DNA of 28,873 bases from a virus. Where the stretch lies: IMG/VR virus record IMGVR_UViG_3300007734_000549, positions 1 to 28,873 of that record; one strand, given 5' to 3'. Below are positions 13,945 through 20,998 of the stretch, one piece after another. The translations under genes were made by a program, and so were the position numbers. Within the stretch, counting starts at the first letter, position 1, and each line of letters starts with the position of its first letter. Below the pieces are notes generated by a model, which was not told the origin of the DNA, did no database searches, and worked only from the letters and a program-made list of their open reading frames with translations.

Positions 13945-15204
13945 ATGGCTAACGTTTTCAATAACGTCCAGACCAAAGCGAGCTGGGTGGCCATGAAGGG
14001 CCTCGACCTGCTCGTGAACGGTCTGCACGTCGCCCCGTATTTCGATACGAGCTACAGCGGCGAGTACGCGCAGAAGTTCGCGATCGGTCGCACCCTCACG
14101 ATCCCGCTCTCGCAGCGCATCCGTCCGCGCACGGACATGACCTACAACCCCGGCGCGATGGATCGGCCGACCACCACCCTGCCGATCGACCAGGTGCGCG
14201 GCTACGACCTGGAGTGGGAATCGATCGAAAAGGCGCTCGACATGGAGCGCGGCGAGGCGCGCGTCGAGGAGCTCTACCTGAAGCCGGCCGTCGCGTATCT
14301 GCGGCAGGAAGTGGACAAGTACTGCGCGCAGTTCGCGGCCCAGAACGCCAACATGGTGGTCGGAGCGCTCGGCACCAACGCGAGCACGCTGGATGCTACC
14401 TCGGCGGCGGCCAAGCAGGCGCTCGAGCAGATGGGCGGGATGCCGGATGACGGCGACGTCGCCGCGTGTCTCCCCCCGGCCGTGTTGCGGGCGATTAAGA
14501 CCAGCAACATCGGGTATTTCAACCCGCAGACGGATCTCGCCAAGACCTGGCGCAGCGGCAACATCGGCACCGCGGACGGGATGGACTTCTATTCGTCCAA
14601 CTCGCTCTACAAGCACACCGCGGGCACCTGGGCCAGCACCGTCTCGATGAGCGGCGCGAACCAGAGCGGATCGTCCATCCTGGTGAGCTGCACCAGCGGC
14701 GACACGTTCAAGCAGGGCGACAAGTTCACCATCGCGGCGGTGAACGAGGTCAACCTGATGTCGCGCATCACGACCACGACAGCGGCGGCCGGCACGAAGT
14801 ATTTCACCGTGACCGCCGACGTGACGGCGACGGCCTCGACGGCGACGATCCCCATCTATCCGCCGATCTACGGCCCGACGTCGAACTACCAGAACGTCGA
14901 TGCCCTGCCGGCGAACTCGGCGGCGCTCACGCTCTGGACCGGCACGACCTCACCGAACGGCAAGAGCGGCAAACTCGGGCTCGTGATCGCCCCTGGCGCG
15001 TTCCTGCTGGCGGCGGTGAAGCTCGAGGAGCCGACCGCGGTGGAAATCTGCAAGCAGTATCAGGATCCCAAGACGGGGATCGCGCTGCGGTTTATTCGGC
15101 AGTGGGACAACATCCAGAGCCGGATGACGAATCGGTTTGACATGACGTTCGGATGCGGTGTGGGGCTGGCTGAGCAGTCCAGCGTCGTCATCGCGTGCGC
15201 GTAA
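13945..15204 (+). CDS. P22-like major capsid (coat) protein
   Basis: The 419-residue product is close to the 430 residues of P22 coat. The N-terminus MANVFNNVQTKASWVAMKGL, the segment FAIGRTLTIPLSQRIRPRTD and a Thr/Ser/Ala-rich insert at about residues 225-310 (TWASTVSMSG... VTADVTATAS) match the HK97-fold coat with an inserted accessory domain, as in P22. The C-terminus (RFIRQWDNIQSRMTNRFDMT) is typical of P22-like coats. A weak GGAG lies about ten bases before the ATG. It forms the icosahedral shell. It is followed by an exported-type protein instead of the usual head-completion gene. Confidence 0.88.
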   Translation: MANVFNNVQTKASWVAMKGLDLLVNGLHVAPYFDTSYSGEYAQKFAIGRTLTIPLSQRIRPRTDMTYNPGAMDRPTTTLPIDQVRGYDLEWESIEKALDMERGEARVEELYLKPAVAYLRQEVDKYCAQFAAQNANMVVGALGTNASTLDATSAAAKQALEQMGGMPDDGDVAACLPPAVLRAIKTSNIGYFNPQTDLAKTWRSGNIGTADGMDFYSSNSLYKHTAGTWASTVSMSGANQSGSSILVSCTSGDTFKQGDKFTIAAVNEVNLMSRITTTTAAAGTKYFTVTADVTATASTATIPIYPPIYGPTSNYQNVDALPANSAALTLWTGTTSPNGKSGKLGLVIAPGAFLLAAVKLEEPTAVEICKQYQDPKTGIALRFIRQWDNIQSRMTNRFDMTFGCGVGLAEQSSVVIACA

Positions 15205-15215
15205 AGGAGATGACC

Positions 15216-15755
15216 ATGAAGCGAATCAATCTGCCTCTCGTCGGGCTTCTGGCGTTTCTCCTCGTGTGGAGCGGCGCCCCTCTCTCGGCGGCGATCACGC
15301 CGGGCGGCTTGCTCAGCAACACCACCCTCAGTGTCGCCATCAACAGCACGCAGACCACGCTGGTGTTGGCGTCGGCGTCCGCGAGTTCGGGATCGACATT
15401 CGGGGCACCGGCCGCGGGCCAGTGTCTCTACATCGATTACGAAATGATGCGGATCGTGTCCATCGCCAGCACCACGGCGACGGTGCAGCGAGGGACGGCG
15501 CGGCGCAGCTCGCACGCGGCCAGCGCGGTGATCCTGACCGGACCCTGTAACGGCTCACAGGGCGGGTTCATGCGGGCGGATCCGCCGAATATCGGAGGAA
15601 ACCAGGATTGCACGCTCTACGTGTTGCCGTGGGTGAATCAGCTCACGGGTGACTCGTGGTGGTGCGATCTGGTGAGCGCGACGAGCGGCACATGGAGCGT
15701 CACCAACACCGTCCAGAACAACGGCACGGCGGGCAGTCGGCGGGTCGCGCAGTAA
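15216..15755 (+). CDS. Signal-peptide-bearing adhesin/decoration-like protein
   Basis: The 179-residue protein starts with a textbook Sec signal: basic MKRIN, then LPLVGLLAFLLVWSGAPLSA, with cleavage expected near residue 26. The mature part is Ser/Thr/Ala-rich beta sequence (TTLSVAINSTQTTLVLASA..., YIDYEMMRIVSIAS, TVQRGTARRSSHAASA), a pattern I know from phage surface and fibre domains with V-x-RGT...HASGA. Two Trp-Cys-type sites (SWWCDL) may form disulphides. AGGAG (15205-15209) stands six bases before ATG 15216; the earlier ATG 15210 is too close. Export of a virion protein is unusual. Confidence 0.6.
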   Translation: MKRINLPLVGLLAFLLVWSGAPLSAAITPGGLLSNTTLSVAINSTQTTLVLASASASSGSTFGAPAAGQCLYIDYEMMRIVSIASTTATVQRGTARRSSHAASAVILTGPCNGSQGGFMRADPPNIGGNQDCTLYVLPWVNQLTGDSWWCDLVSATSGTWSVTNTVQNNGTAGSRRVAQ

Positions 15756-15775
15756 TCGCGGGAGGGCTGCTGGCG

Positions 15776-16174
15776 GTGACGCTGGCGGCCCTCTCGTGGC
15801 ACTCCAGCGCCGCGTTCACGTCTGAACGGGCGCTGTGGGCGCAGGCGCAGCGGGTCGCGCCGACATTGCCAGATCCGTGGATTCACGGGGCGATGGCAGT
15901 CTTAAACGCCGGCGATCCGCGCGAGGCGGGGCGCTGGCGCGAGGCTGAACAGTTACTCGATCGGGCGCGGTCAGTCGTCTCATCACAGTCCTTCACGGAG
16001 CAGCAATGGGCCAGGGATGCGATCAAGGCCACGACGGCGGTGATTCGCATGCGTCAGGGGCGACTCCTCGAGGCGTCGGCGCTGATGCAGGACGCGAAGC
16101 CGGACACGGCGCGGGGGCGACTCTGCGCGCACTTCCGCTCGGTGTGTGCCTTGGCGGCCTCGTCGGGCTCGTGA
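15776..16174 (+). CDS. Membrane/TPR fragment like the C-terminus of PMT/TMTC-type transferases
   Basis: The product (132 residues from GTG 15776) begins with the end of a transmembrane helix and continues with SERALWAQAQRVAPTLPDPW and TPR-like helices (REAEQLLDRARSVVSSQSF, GRLLEASALM). The S/T-x-x-LW...P motif followed by TPR is what normally comes after the last membrane helix of TMTC-like or Wzy-like transferases. ATG 15692, 64 bases inside the previous gene, would add a basic start and restore the full membrane helix. The gene overlaps the next one, which encodes the membrane catalytic half. It looks like a detached and relocated C-terminal module (inference). Confidence 0.55.
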   Translation: MTLAALSWHSSAAFTSERALWAQAQRVAPTLPDPWIHGAMAVLNAGDPREAGRWREAEQLLDRARSVVSSQSFTEQQWARDAIKATTAVIRMRQGRLLEASALMQDAKPDTARGRLCAHFRSVCALAASSGS

Positions 16175-17046
16175 TGCTGGCGACTCTGCGGATCTGGACG
16201 ATGCCGTTTGTCTACGACGATGCGGAGTGGATGGCGCAAAGCGCGGCTCAGTGGTCGGTCGGGGCCGTGCCGTTTCGATTCGCGCAGTGGCTGGGGGATG
16301 GTCTGCCGCGGGCCGCACATGCGGTCGTGCTCGGGCTCCATCTCATAAACGGCCTCCTGCTGTGGGTGGTCTCGCGGCGGTGGCTTTCCGAGACTGGGGC
16401 GCTGCTGGCGCTGACGCTGTTCTGGCTCCATCCCTTGCCGTTACAGGCGGTGTTCTACGTCACGGGCGGTCGCGAGGTGTGGCTGACGACGCTGACGCTG
16501 CTGGCGGTGCTCGGTGGCCTTCACGGCGGGGTCTTGGGCTGGACGCTCGGGATCAGTGCGTGGCTCTCGGCGGTCGGCGTAAAGACCAGCGCGCTGCCGG
16601 TGCTGTTGGCGGTGCCGTTCGTCTGGGCGTGCGCGCGGGGCTACGGGCGACTGCTCGCGGTGCTGCTGGTGTGCGTGGGGCTCTCGACGACGGGGCCGTG
16701 GGCGCTGTCTAGCGAGGCGGTACGGACGTGGGCGGTGAGCCTGACGCGCTATCTCGGATTTGTGGCGTGGCCGGACGGGTTCTCCATCGTGCATGACTGG
16801 CGGGTCGTGTCGCCGGCTATCGGCGGGGTGGCGCTGGCGGGGCTCCTTTGGCTTGGCGTCGTCGCGTGGTCGCGGTCGCGCGCGGCGTGGTGGGCGTGGC
16901 TCTGGGTGGTGGCGCTGACGTGCCCGCGGGCGCTGGTGAGCGGCCCCACGTTGACGGAAGCCCAGATGTATCTGCCCCTCGTCGCGGTGTGGATCGCGAT
17001 CGGGTTGGCGGTGGACGGTTTCAAGGAAAAGAGAGTGTATGGCTGA
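16144..17046 (+). CDS. Multi-pass GT-C glycosyltransferase half (PMT/TMTC-like)
   Basis: About 300 residues with eight to ten hydrophobic segments. Hallmarks of the TMTC/PMT group are visible: FVYDDAEWM just after the first helix (Asp25-Asp26, the usual catalytic acid site of the first outer loop), a helix with LHLINGLLLW, WLHPLPLQAVFYVTGGREVW (about 95-113) and TEAQMYLPLVAVWIAIG near the end. Such enzymes transfer sugars from lipid carriers to proteins outside the cytoplasm. GTG 16144 is chosen because it keeps the first membrane helix; ATG 16174 (TGATG overlap) would cut it. The C-terminal TPR part is missing here and lies in the upstream gene. A glycosyltransferase within capsid genes is unexpected. 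Confidence 0.65.
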   Translation: MCLGGLVGLVMLATLRIWTMPFVYDDAEWMAQSAAQWSVGAVPFRFAQWLGDGLPRAAHAVVLGLHLINGLLLWVVSRRWLSETGALLALTLFWLHPLPLQAVFYVTGGREVWLTTLTLLAVLGGLHGGVLGWTLGISAWLSAVGVKTSALPVLLAVPFVWACARGYGRLLAVLLVCVGLSTTGPWALSSEAVRTWAVSLTRYLGFVAWPDGFSIVHDWRVVSPAIGGVALAGLLWLGVVAWSRSRAAWWAWLWVVALTCPRALVSGPTLTEAQMYLPLVAVWIAIGLAVDGFKEKRVYG

Positions 17047-17257
17047 AGCAGGTAAAGCGTTCGATCTGATGAATCCCCCGGTATCGATCTCGGGTGGGGC
17101 GACAGGCTTTCAGGAATATCCGAAGCATCTGCGCCAGGCGGATGGCTCGATCGTGGTCGTGACGTCCCGCGAGGACGAGGCGGCGCACACGCCAGCGCCG
17201 GCCGCCGAAGAGCCAGTGAAGCGCGGCCCCGGTCGGCCTCGCACTGACGCGGCCTGA
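17039..17257 (+). CDS. Small virion-associated-type protein with AT-hook-like tail
   Basis: A 72-residue protein whose middle (FQEYPKHLRQADGSIVVVTS) resembles small proteins found next to coat and head-completion genes. The C-terminus KRGPGRPRTDAA contains RGRP-like GPGRPR, the core of an AT-hook that can bind the DNA minor groove. ATG 17039 overlaps the preceding gene by eight bases and the stop overlaps the next ATG (TGATG). Function unknown. Confidence 0.55.
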   Translation: MAEAGKAFDLMNPPVSISGGATGFQEYPKHLRQADGSIVVVTSREDEAAHTPAPAAEEPVKRGPGRPRTDAA

Positions 17258-18012
17258 TGTCGATTACCGCCCAGGATCTCATACGGCTCGCGCTGCTCGA
17301 GATCCGCGTGGCGCGATCGGGCGACGTCGTGAGCCCGAACCTCAACGCAGACGCGTTGCTGGTGCTCAATGAGTATCTTGATCGGCTCAACGTCACGCCG
17401 CGGGCACTGTACGACACGACACAGACCACGTTCACGCTCACGCCGAGTCTACAACCGCACACGATCGGCCTGACGGCGAATAGCCCAACCTTCAGCGTCT
17501 CGATCAACCGGCCAGCGCGCATCATCAGCGCCAATATCGTCTTGTCGGGGAATATCCGCGTCCCGGTGAACATCCTAAACGAACAGGGATGGGACGCAAT
17601 CACGGCGGGCGCGGCGGCGGGGCAGAGCGTCACGATCACGAGTTCCATCCCGACGGATCTGTTCTACAAGCCGACGTGGCCGAACGGCTCGATCTATCTC
17701 TGGCCGGTGCCGACCGCTAACAAGCTCGAGTTGCGTTTCGAGACGTTGCTCGCCTCGCTCGCGCTGACAGACACGTTCACCTTGCCGATGGGCTATCAGC
17801 AGGCGCTGCGGTTGACGCTCGCGGAGCTTCTTGCGCCGATGTGCGGGCAAGAGGTGTCCGCGGACACGAAGCGCGCGGCTCGAGACGCGCGCGAAGCGGT
17901 CTGGGGCACCAACGACGTCAGCCTTGATGCGATGCCGGATGTGGGCATGGCGGCCACGGGTCGCGGGGGCGGCTGGAACTACAAAACAGGACAGATCGGA
18001 GCCTCCCAATGA
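17257..18012 (+). CDS. P22 gp4-like head-tail adaptor/head completion protein
   Basis: The 251-residue protein starts with a helical segment (AQDLIRLALLEIRVARSGD, then LNADALLVLNEYLDRLN) like the N-terminus of P22 gp4-type adaptors that plug the portal. The middle is beta-rich with IYLWPVPTANKLELRFE and a late helix LPMGYQQALRLTLAELLAP, usual for this group. It is longer than P22 gp4 (166 residues), matching environmental relatives. Its place between coat and the gp10-like gene supports the call. Confidence 0.7.
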   Translation: MSITAQDLIRLALLEIRVARSGDVVSPNLNADALLVLNEYLDRLNVTPRALYDTTQTTFTLTPSLQPHTIGLTANSPTFSVSINRPARIISANIVLSGNIRVPVNILNEQGWDAITAGAAAGQSVTITSSIPTDLFYKPTWPNGSIYLWPVPTANKLELRFETLLASLALTDTFTLPMGYQQALRLTLAELLAPMCGQEVSADTKRAARDAREAVWGTNDVSLDAMPDVGMAATGRGGGWNYKTGQIGASQ

Positions 18013-18272: not shown

Positions 18273-18686
18273 ATGCCGATTCAGCGAACCGAAAGCGGGA
18301 CGTTTGCGGCTGGTGGGCCGGTGAAGAGATACCGCATGAAATCTGCGGGTGGACGACTTCAACTCGCTCACAGGTTGCGCGCGGAATCCGCACTCGGCAA
18401 GCCGTTGCCGCACAAGGCCGAAGTGCATCACGCCGATGGCAGCAAGCGCGACGACGCACCGCTCGTGATTTGTCAGGACCACGCTTATCACCGCCTGCTA
18501 CATCTGCGAACGCGCGTACTCAGGGCTGGCGGCGATCCGAACACTGAGCGCATTTGTAACGGGTGCAAGCAGATCAAGCCGCTTGATGCGTTTACTCCTG
18601 CCGCCGCGGCGCGCGGCGATTGGCAGTGTCGCGCGTGTCCTACGAAACAGGCTCGTCAATTACTACGTCGGAAGGTGGCGGCGTAA
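18273..18686 (+). CDS. HNH endonuclease (homing type)
   Basis: The 137-residue protein has an HNH-type core: GKPLPHKAEVHHADGSKRDD (His52, His53) and LVICQDHAYHRLLHLRTR. These are standard features of phage HNH nucleases, where the two His and the D-H-x-x-Y-H-x-L-L-H segment hold the metal. The C-terminal knuckles (Cys95, Cys98, Cys119, Cys122) around KPLDAF resemble those of the HNH gene at 5452. It lies between two structural genes with no overlap on either side, as expected for an intruding homing gene. Host DNA target unknown. Confidence 0.8.
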   Translation: MPIQRTESGTFAAGGPVKRYRMKSAGGRLQLAHRLRAESALGKPLPHKAEVHHADGSKRDDAPLVICQDHAYHRLLHLRTRVLRAGGDPNTERICNGCKQIKPLDAFTPAAAARGDWQCRACPTKQARQLLRRKVAA

Positions 18687-18687
18687 A

Positions 18688-20154
18688 GTGGCCAAATGGC
18701 CTGCTTTTATCGGGGGGAGTTATCCGGCGACGGCCTGGAGTGCCGACGTCGAAGATACCCTCAATTTGTACGTCGAAAAGATGGAAGTGCGCGGCGGGAA
18801 GAATCCTGACGGGATGCTGCTCCCCACGCCTGGGTTTACCAGTTGGGCCACGTCCTCATTGGTCGGCAGTCGCGGTGCGCTCTATTGCGAAGGGCGGCTG
18901 TTCTGGGTGATGGGCACGGCGCTGCTCGAAATCAGCAGCACGGGCACGATCACGAACCGCGGGACCATCGCGTCGGACGGGAACCCCGCGCAGTTGGCCT
19001 ATAACGGCATCGTCGGCGGCCATCTCGGGATTTGTTCCGGGGGCAACGTCTACAACTTCGTCCTGAGCAGTAATTCGCTCAGCTCGGCGCTGTTGACGGG
19101 CGGCTATACCCATCTCAGTGTCGCGCACGGCTACGGGCTGGCGTTCAATCCGACGACCGGCAAGGTCAATCTCTCGAATCTGAACAGCATGGCGACGTGG
19201 AGCGCGTCGAACTTCTTCCGCCGCTCGCTGTTTTCTGATCCGTGGCAGGCGATGTTCGTGGATCAGAACGCGCTGATATGGCTCCCTGGCACGGAGACGT
19301 TTGAAGTCTGGTACGACACCGGATCAGGGACGCAGCCGTGGGCGCCGCTCTCTGGTTTGATTGGTCGGTACGGCATCCGCGCGCCGTTTGCCTACGGCAT
19401 CAGCGGGCTGGGCCTGACCTGGCTGGCGAGCACGGGCGAAGGCGGGACGGATGTGGTGCGGACCACTGGATCGATCCCGAAAGTCGTGAGCACGTTTCCC
19501 ATCTCCACGGCGATTTCCAGTATTCGACGGAGCACCACGATCGCCAATGCCGAATGTGTGCCGTATCACATGGACGGGCACACGTTCCAGAATTTTTCCT
19601 TTCCCTCCGCGCCAGGCACTGCCCCGAAAACCCTCACCTACGACATGGAGGGGTCTGTCTGGACGAAGCGCGGCCAGTGGCTCTCTGCGTCGAGCAGCTA
19701 TGACGTGTGGGCGCCTCGCGTCCATGTGGACGCCTACGGCAAGCATCTCGTGGGCGATCGCGCCACCGGCACGATCTGGACGATGGATCCGACCGTCTCG
19801 ACGGACATCGACGGCAACGGGATCGTGCGGCAGCGGATCGCGCCGGGGATTACCGACGAGCACAAGCGCCATCCGATCGAACAGATCGAACTGTTGATGG
19901 ATGTTGGCGTGGGGCTCTCTGGAACTGGGCAGGGCAGCGATCCGCAGGCGATGTTGTCGGTGTCTGACGATGGCGGGCAGACCTACGGCAACGAACTGTG
20001 GGCGTCGATGGGGCGGATTGGGCAGTACCGCAAGCGCGTCTACTGGCAGCAGTTGGGGGCGAATCCTGACACGGTGATCAAGGTGCGCTGGTCGGATCCG
20101 GTGCCGGTGCGCGTCAGTGATTGCTGGGTCAATAACTTGGAATCAAACCGCTGA
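18688..20154 (+). CDS. P22 gp10-like packaged DNA stabilization protein
   Basis: The 488-residue protein is close to P22 gp10 (472 residues). Its N-terminus MAKWPAFIGGSYPATAW... DTLNLYVEK matches the family start (M-x-x-x-P-x-F-V-G-x-x-Y ... N-L-Y-x-E), and the rest is repeated beta strands with many Gly-Trp pairs. A late part with SVSDDGGQTYGNE and WSDPVPVRVSDCWVN is also typical. It caps the portal-gp4 channel. GTG 18688, two bases after the HNH stop, gives the family N-terminus; GGTGG lies upstream. In-frame starts inside the HNH gene give unrelated residues and are rejected. Confidence 0.82.
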   Translation: MAKWPAFIGGSYPATAWSADVEDTLNLYVEKMEVRGGKNPDGMLLPTPGFTSWATSSLVGSRGALYCEGRLFWVMGTALLEISSTGTITNRGTIASDGNPAQLAYNGIVGGHLGICSGGNVYNFVLSSNSLSSALLTGGYTHLSVAHGYGLAFNPTTGKVNLSNLNSMATWSASNFFRRSLFSDPWQAMFVDQNALIWLPGTETFEVWYDTGSGTQPWAPLSGLIGRYGIRAPFAYGISGLGLTWLASTGEGGTDVVRTTGSIPKVVSTFPISTAISSIRRSTTIANAECVPYHMDGHTFQNFSFPSAPGTAPKTLTYDMEGSVWTKRGQWLSASSSYDVWAPRVHVDAYGKHLVGDRATGTIWTMDPTVSTDIDGNGIVRQRIAPGITDEHKRHPIEQIELLMDVGVGLSGTGQGSDPQAMLSVSDDGGQTYGNELWASMGRIGQYRKRVYWQQLGANPDTVIKVRWSDPVPVRVSDCWVNNLESNR

Positions 20155-20621
20155 TGCCGCAAGCCCTTGGGCCGATCCCCTCGGATCAGGACATCACTGA
20201 ACAGGGCGGGCCTATTACGACCTATTTCCGCCTGCGCTGGCAGGAATTGATTGACAGCTTCACGAAGGTGCCAACGCTGGTGACGATCGACACGGGCGTC
20301 TTGGCGGCGGCGCTGGCGACGACGGCCGCGCAGACGGTGATCGCGCCGGGGATGTATCGGCTCGGGCTCTACATCCAGAAAATCACGGCGGATGGGGTGA
20401 ACTCGTCGCTCACGGTGACGGTGGGCTGGACAAGTCGCGGGATTCCGTTGACGAAGACGTTTACCGCGCTGACCACGGACACGATCGGCGCGAATGACAG
20501 CTACACCTGGGAGCTGTATTCGGACGCGAACAGCGACATCACGTATGCGGTGGCGTATGCGTCGAACACGCCGGGGAATATGACGTACCGCCTGAATGGG
20601 GCACTGGAAAAGCTGGCATGA
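20154..20621 (+). CDS. Virion structural protein of unknown role
   Basis: The 155-residue protein starts at an ATG overlapping the gp10-like stop by one base (TGATG). Its N-terminus ITEQGGPITTYFRLRWQELI is helical and resembles connector-attached proteins in environmental phages. The rest is beta-rich (RLGLYIQKITADG... VTVGWTSRG... TYAVAYASNTPG). Position after gp10 and the beta content suggest a tail-connector or small tail component. A tail needle is not supported because no long coiled coil is present. Confidence 0.55.
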   Translation: MPQALGPIPSDQDITEQGGPITTYFRLRWQELIDSFTKVPTLVTIDTGVLAAALATTAAQTVIAPGMYRLGLYIQKITADGVNSSLTVTVGWTSRGIPLTKTFTALTTDTIGANDSYTWELYSDANSDITYAVAYASNTPGNMTYRLNGALEKLA

Positions 20622-20998
20622 CGAGCCGCATTTTGCCGCCGGAAGAGTGGCCGCGCCTCGCAGGGACGGAACTCGATGGCGCGTACCAGACGTTGCCGCC
20701 GCACGCTCAGATCGTGGTGGTTGAGGATAACGGGCAGATCGTCGCGTGCTGGTCGCTGTTTGCCGTATGGCACGTCGAAGGGCTGTGGACAGCCCCCACG
20801 CATCGCGCGCAACCGTCCGTGGTGTTTCGGTTGGTTGGGGCGATGAAGCGGCTCGTGCGGGCGCAGGGCGTGCGGAGCGTCTATACCGCCGCGTGCAGCG
20901 AGGACGTGCGGGCGTTGATTACACGGTTCGGCGGGACGCAGGTGCCGGCGGACGCTTACATGTTGCCACTCGGAGGATCGTCATCATGCCACTCGTAG
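20618..20998 (+). CDS. GNAT-acetyltransferase-like phage protein
   Basis: The 126-residue protein has the strand-helix order of a shortened GNAT fold: PPHAQIVVVEDNGQIVACW, a beta strand HVEGLWTAPTHR, a helix VVFRLVGAMKRLVRAQGV and a final VRSVYTAACSEDVRALI. The canonical acetyl-CoA loop (Q/R-x-x-G-x-G/A) is not evident, so it may not be an enzyme. Similar GNAT-like proteins occur among head-tail genes of P22-like phages. It overlaps both neighbours. Role unknown. Confidence 0.5.
   Translation: MTSRILPPEEWPRLAGTELDGAYQTLPPHAQIVVVEDNGQIVACWSLFAVWHVEGLWTAPTHRAQPSVVFRLVGAMKRLVRAQGVRSVYTAACSEDVRALITRFGGTQVPADAYMLPLGGSSSCHS

Follow-up and report, generated by a model that had tools for sequence, protein, structure and literature searches.

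The Gtr seroconversion clusters of phages (P22, Sf6) encode a polytopic glycosyltransferase that acts outside the cytoplasm and bring along a flippase and a donor synthase. A different architecture is found in the animal TMTC1-4 proteins, which are involved in the O-mannosylation of cadherins and consist of a single chain of 11 membrane helices with DD, KE and ERxxY motifs, a cytoplasmic N-terminus and a luminal C-terminus, the TPR following helix 11 beyond the membrane (PMC7801869). Bacteria have one-piece TMTC-like TPR proteins, such as those of Solimonas soli (L019, 475 amino acids) and Nevskia (L015), in which the DD, Lys and YLP signatures, the last membrane helix, the S..LW motif and the TPR likewise belong to one polypeptide, with the core first.

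The window analyzed here is a 28.9-kb virus contig (28,873 nucleotides) with a P22-type head region that includes terminase, portal, scaffold, coat, adaptor and Hc3 genes. Between the coat and adaptor genes lie three overlapping genes plus a gene for a 72-amino acid protein (Table 1). The favored reading, for which a probability of about 0.5 appears appropriate, is that two of the three overlapping genes encode a two-subunit TMTC-like GT-C glycosyltransferase within a phage three-gene accessory module, where assembly and activity are what we infer. The pair resembles the animal TMTC1-4 in the DD motif, the predicted cytoplasmic N-terminus and the predicted position of the TPR beyond the membrane, but is not a single chain, and its core yields no match to DUF1736. 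Compared with the bacterial proteins, the phage form consists of two genes with the TPR part first, and the ER..Y arginine is often lost. Unlike the Gtr clusters, the pair resides in a head operon, and in this partial contig neither a flippase nor a donor synthase was recognized among the main genes. The sequence-only reading had located both frames (TPR from ATG 15692 to 16174, GT-C up to 17046) between the coat and head-completion genes, and both the positions and the placement hold, with the P22-type coat gene on the 5' side and the SU10-adaptor-like gene followed by Hc3 on the 3' side. From the tight, overlapping gene packing, co-expression of the pair with the virion genes would be a fair expectation.

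Table 1. Features of the head locus (positions in the window)
Feature	Coordinates	Strand	Evidence
P22-type major coat protein, left module boundary	13945..15204	+	PF11651 E 3.8e-18; phrog_283
Secreted/periplasmic protein gene (predicted), first of module	15216..15755	+	alignment, four lineages; Sec-type signal peptide
TPR half	15692..16174	+	profile match to L019; weak Pfam TPR matches
GT-C catalytic half (predicted)	16123..17046	+	profile match to L019; AlphaFold model; motif table
Overlap, TPR gene end/GT-C gene start	16123..16174	+	four-lineage codon comparison
Small gene, 72 aa, right module boundary	17039..17257	+	tblastn to L002, L003, L004, L055
SU10-adaptor-like gene	17257-18012		PF24175 E 1.4e-6
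Head closure gene Hc3	18583-20154		phrog_578 E 1e-71

In profile-profile (HH) comparison, the GT-C gene aligns with residues 28-367 of the 475-amino acid bacterial homolog L019 (E 2.6e-26) and the TPR gene with residues 396-461 (E 9e-10); the two matches are complementary and do not overlap and, judged by sequence, each gene supplies the half of a TMTC-like GT-C/TPR protein that the other lacks. With column-shuffled controls (15 per profile, for both GT-C and TPR), probabilities were below 1% and the matches were lost. The TPR protein begins with a membrane helix that corresponds to helix 11 of the TMTC proteins, followed by an S..LW....AP linker motif and then TPR-like helices. The helix and the LW motif alone, without the TPR, still match residues 388-428 of L019 (E 6.4e-7), and therefore the match is specific to the TMTC-like family and not a generic repeat match. 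Thus, the TPR gene does not come from an unrelated family but aligns with the last helix and TPR region of the TMTC proteins. Matches to TAL effectors in a PDB sequence search were rejected as a repeat artefact, single stretches scoring 2-6 bits.

The AlphaFold model of the core, built from nine sequences (pLDDT 77, pTM 0.79), contains about ten membrane helices, by our count, and a few short or juxtamembrane ones. ArnT ranks first in the Foldseek search, in which no E-value is below 0.001. In VIA-align, Pmt4 (Z 17.7) and ArnT (Z 15.6) are followed by OST, Alg, Emb, Aft, PimE and DPY19 chains; the 34 rows with Z from 17.7 to 8.3 all correspond to GT-C enzymes or to entries for GPI transamidase or GPI mannosyltransferase, in which the matched subunits are GT-C-like, so that above Z 8 there are GT-C chains only, and the first unrelated chain appears at Z 5.8. 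The PMT/TMTC-like identity initially proposed for the second gene (16144-17046) is thus supported by both the profile match to the bacterial TMTC-like family and the GT-C fold of the model. Although the fold is common to PMT (Pmt4), ArnT and the phage core, the latter has no MIR domain and comes with a separate TPR partner instead. There is no Pfam match to the core at E 1, including PMT (PF02366) and DUF1736, and no NCBIfam or PHROG match in single-sequence searches, a weak PHROG match (E 0.18) being disregarded. The only clear neighbor in the viral fold library (BFVD) is A0A514K2W1, an uncharacterized 326-amino acid protein of a Nitrosopumilus spindle-shaped virus (Foldseek probability 1.00, TM 0.59, E 0.01), a possible GT-C enzyme in an archaeal virus.

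A search of viral metagenomes for the same gene pair beside coat genes, through coat relatives in IMG/VR and a profile scan, identified four further contigs (L002, L003, L004 and L010). These contigs and the window share the gene order coat, secreted protein, TPR, GT-C, small gene, adaptor, with only the 3' end of the coat gene included in L003 and L004. Because this order recurs in four viral relatives, the arrangement is not an assembly error, nor is it due to chance. The coat proteins of L002 and L010 are 89% and 66% identical to that of the window, and identity across the related contigs is 40-56% for the GT-C products and 41-50% for the TPR products. Outside the overlaps, dN of the TPR and GT-C genes (∼0.4-0.6) is lower than dS (∼0.7-1.4) in every pair among the four lineages, and the coat and adaptor genes have dN of 0.08-0.17 at similar dS. 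The pair is under purifying selection, yet evolves faster than the virion genes.

The bacterial relatives are not independent gene pairs but one-piece proteins. Scanning genomes with the phage profile led to three gammaproteobacterial contigs, and a profile search of 398 genomes produced 26 matches distributed over 20 genomes. Every match lies in a frame no shorter than 475 amino acids (one with an in-frame TGA), the membrane core coming first and TPR-like repeats last where inspected. The profile alignment to L019 places the phage split on the cytoplasmic side, in the loop that joins helices 10 and 11, that is, between the second-last and last membrane helices, as had been deduced from the letters, and the reversed order of the parts is seen in 5 of the 5 phage contigs. 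The proposed ‘circular permutation' stands for the gene order but not for the polypeptide: given the TMTC topology, with a cytoplasmic N-terminus and a luminal TPR (PMC7801869), a TPR joined to helix 1 would force this helix to enter the membrane from the outer side instead of from the cytoplasm and turn the catalytic domain over, and hence, the parts must be separate chains. By this reasoning, the gene order would be reversible only with the parts as separate proteins. Fusion by a programmed -1 frameshift was considered and rejected, with no conserved slippery heptamer found on inspection and the core topology inverted in such a fusion. Tandem one-piece TMTC-like genes are found in Solimonas (L014:3542-7707, with an overlap of 4 nt) and Nevskia (L015:1800-5701). 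Duplication and loss could account for the two halves, with a tandem bacterial pair as a possible source, and a segment comprising the end of the first gene and the core of the second would yield the TPR-then-core order directly; the matches are too weak as proof of this origin.

The TPR and GT-C frames are -1 related, and the GT-C frame is open from upstream of 16006 to 17046, with conserved coding from about CTG 16123 or GTG 16144. The overlap, given as about 31 bases in the sequence-only reading, has this length if the start is GTG 16144, but reaches up to ∼52 nt if it is CTG 16123. Translational coupling of the two genes within this segment is probable. At the homologous position of the GT-C start, L010 has GAGG-N6-GTG and L002/L003 have GAGG-N6-CTG; there is no ATG, GTG or TTG upstream of GT-C helix 1 in L002:8156-8243 and L003:1636-1723, and CTG initiation is suggested for these two. 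In the window, the counterpart of the L010 GTG start would be CTG 16123, which also contributes to a conserved Cys codon in the TPR frame; the constraints on the start and on the Cys are thus inseparable. The start of the TPR gene is uncertain, with ATG 15692 in the window and no start at that codon in L010.

The motifs of the GT-C core include the YDD loop, LHP, Lys and E..YLP. D31 and D32 (DD, first outer loop) and Lys 153 (the Lys of the KE motif) do not vary among the 4 phage and 24 bacterial sequences compared, and the Glu after this Lys is missing in the phages, likewise in many bacterial members. The ER..Y arginine, proposed as a donor phosphate contact in TMTC models (PMC7801869), occurs without exception in the 24 bacterial sequences, is also found in L010, which retains ERxxY, and is replaced by Ala in the window and L002 and by His in L004. 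The arginine of the RxD region is displaced by one or lost in the phage sequences, and HDW is retained in 3 of the 4 phage lineages. Because of the loss of the ER..Y arginine in three of the four lineages and the shift or loss of the RxD-region arginine, catalytic activity is plausible, but not assured; the core may lack activity or depend on a different donor.

The gene that adjoins the pair upstream is absent from the sequence-only reading. Its product is Ser/Thr-rich, with Sec-type signal-peptide-like N-termini that contain a hydrophobic segment in four lineages, among which identity is 60-77% and Cys 70, 111, 132 and 150 are invariant. The AlphaFold model of this protein is unusable (pLDDT 45), and its profile has no relative in the PDB. 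The gene is seen only in contigs that also carry the TPR/GT-C pair. In L055, the coat protein of which is 60% identical to that of the window, the secreted, TPR and GT-C genes are all missing, and the coat gene is followed by an unrelated short frame, the small gene, the adaptor and Hc3; the short frame at the module site (L055:4116-4598) is Lys/Ala-rich. The more distant L005 has no module either, and the adaptor starts ∼285 bases after the coat gene. Because the three genes occur jointly in four lineages and are jointly missing from L055 and L005, they form one accessory module. The 72-amino acid small gene (at 4740-4985 in L010) is retained whether or not a relative carries the module, and the position between it and the coat gene appears to be a variable site of insertion. 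The two extra genes of EBPR podovirus 1 at the same site were rejected as counterparts, having no membrane helices and no resemblance. From its co-occurrence with the pair as one module, the secreted protein would be the first candidate acceptor (substrate or partner); its signal peptide and invariant cysteines fit the periplasmic location of a putative acceptor.

Under the favored reading, the larger protein would lie in the inner membrane as a catalytic core of ten helices, its DD loop facing the periplasm, whereas the smaller one would add the final membrane helix together with a TPR domain in the periplasm, dock on the core and recruit acceptor proteins. The sugar would be drawn from a host polyprenyl-phosphate-sugar, no donor-making gene being recognized in the contig, and would be transferred to an exported protein in late infection, the likeliest acceptor being the signal-peptide protein of the module itself. 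Assembly of the halves, catalysis, donor, acceptor and timing are all elements that we infer. The full scenario, a two-subunit phage enzyme of the TMTC type cut as an inner slice from tandem host genes and dedicated to glycosylating the phage secreted protein late, is tentative and rather unlikely as a whole.

Similarly doubtful is the possibility that the pair modifies a host surface glycan, in the manner of ArnT or Gtr, with the TPR serving assembly only, so that the receptor is changed and superinfection blocked. The GT-C fold shared with ArnT, the well-known roles of this kind among phage Gtr enzymes and the rapid protein evolution relative to the neighboring virion genes, which fits a host-facing role, all favor this possibility. 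However, the sequence relatives of the pair are TMTC-like proteins with TPR, a class tied to animal protein O-mannosylation (PMC7801869), no flippase or GT2 donor synthase was recognized in the contig, unlike the gtr clusters, and the secreted protein gene is closely linked.

Somewhat unlikely, too, is that these proteins are catalytically dead relatives that function as membrane factors, for example, in superinfection exclusion or lysis timing. The altered arginines and the late operon location are compatible with such a role, but the strict conservation of DD and Lys, the ERxxY of L010, the HDW of three lineages and the intact fold of the model argue against it. It is highly improbable that the pair is a decaying, functionless remnant of an acquired host gene: the high divergence and the missing conventional start codons of L002 and L003 would be expected of a remnant, but the frames are open in four lineages at a synonymous distance near 1, dN is below dS in all pairs, and the frame is common to two contigs from different samples.

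Neither PHROGs nor a set of 50,697 annotated phage records contain a relative of the core, bacterial queries found no unsplit TMTC-like gene in viral contigs or annotated phages, and no phage TMTC-like system was found in the literature searched, in agreement with the initial remark that no described phage system of this shape is known. Thus, although TMTC-like enzymes are known, the split, order-reversed, phage-borne form in a head operon is undescribed within these collections and the literature searched, absence from which is not absence from nature. If active, the pair would be a natural split GT-C enzyme in which the last helix and TPR make a separable acceptor-binding subunit, which would offer a modest insight into the working of TMTC-class enzymes, and the head-operon module would represent a new phage route to altering proteins outside the cytoplasm.

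Two further genes are found in the vicinity. An HNH-endonuclease-like gene (18273-18686), located between a small fibre-like gene and Hc3, has no tblastn match in L002 or L004 and is therefore probably a mobile insertion. A GNAT-acetyltransferase-like gene (20618-20998) adjoins the head-closure genes, and similar frames occupy the same place in L002 and L004.
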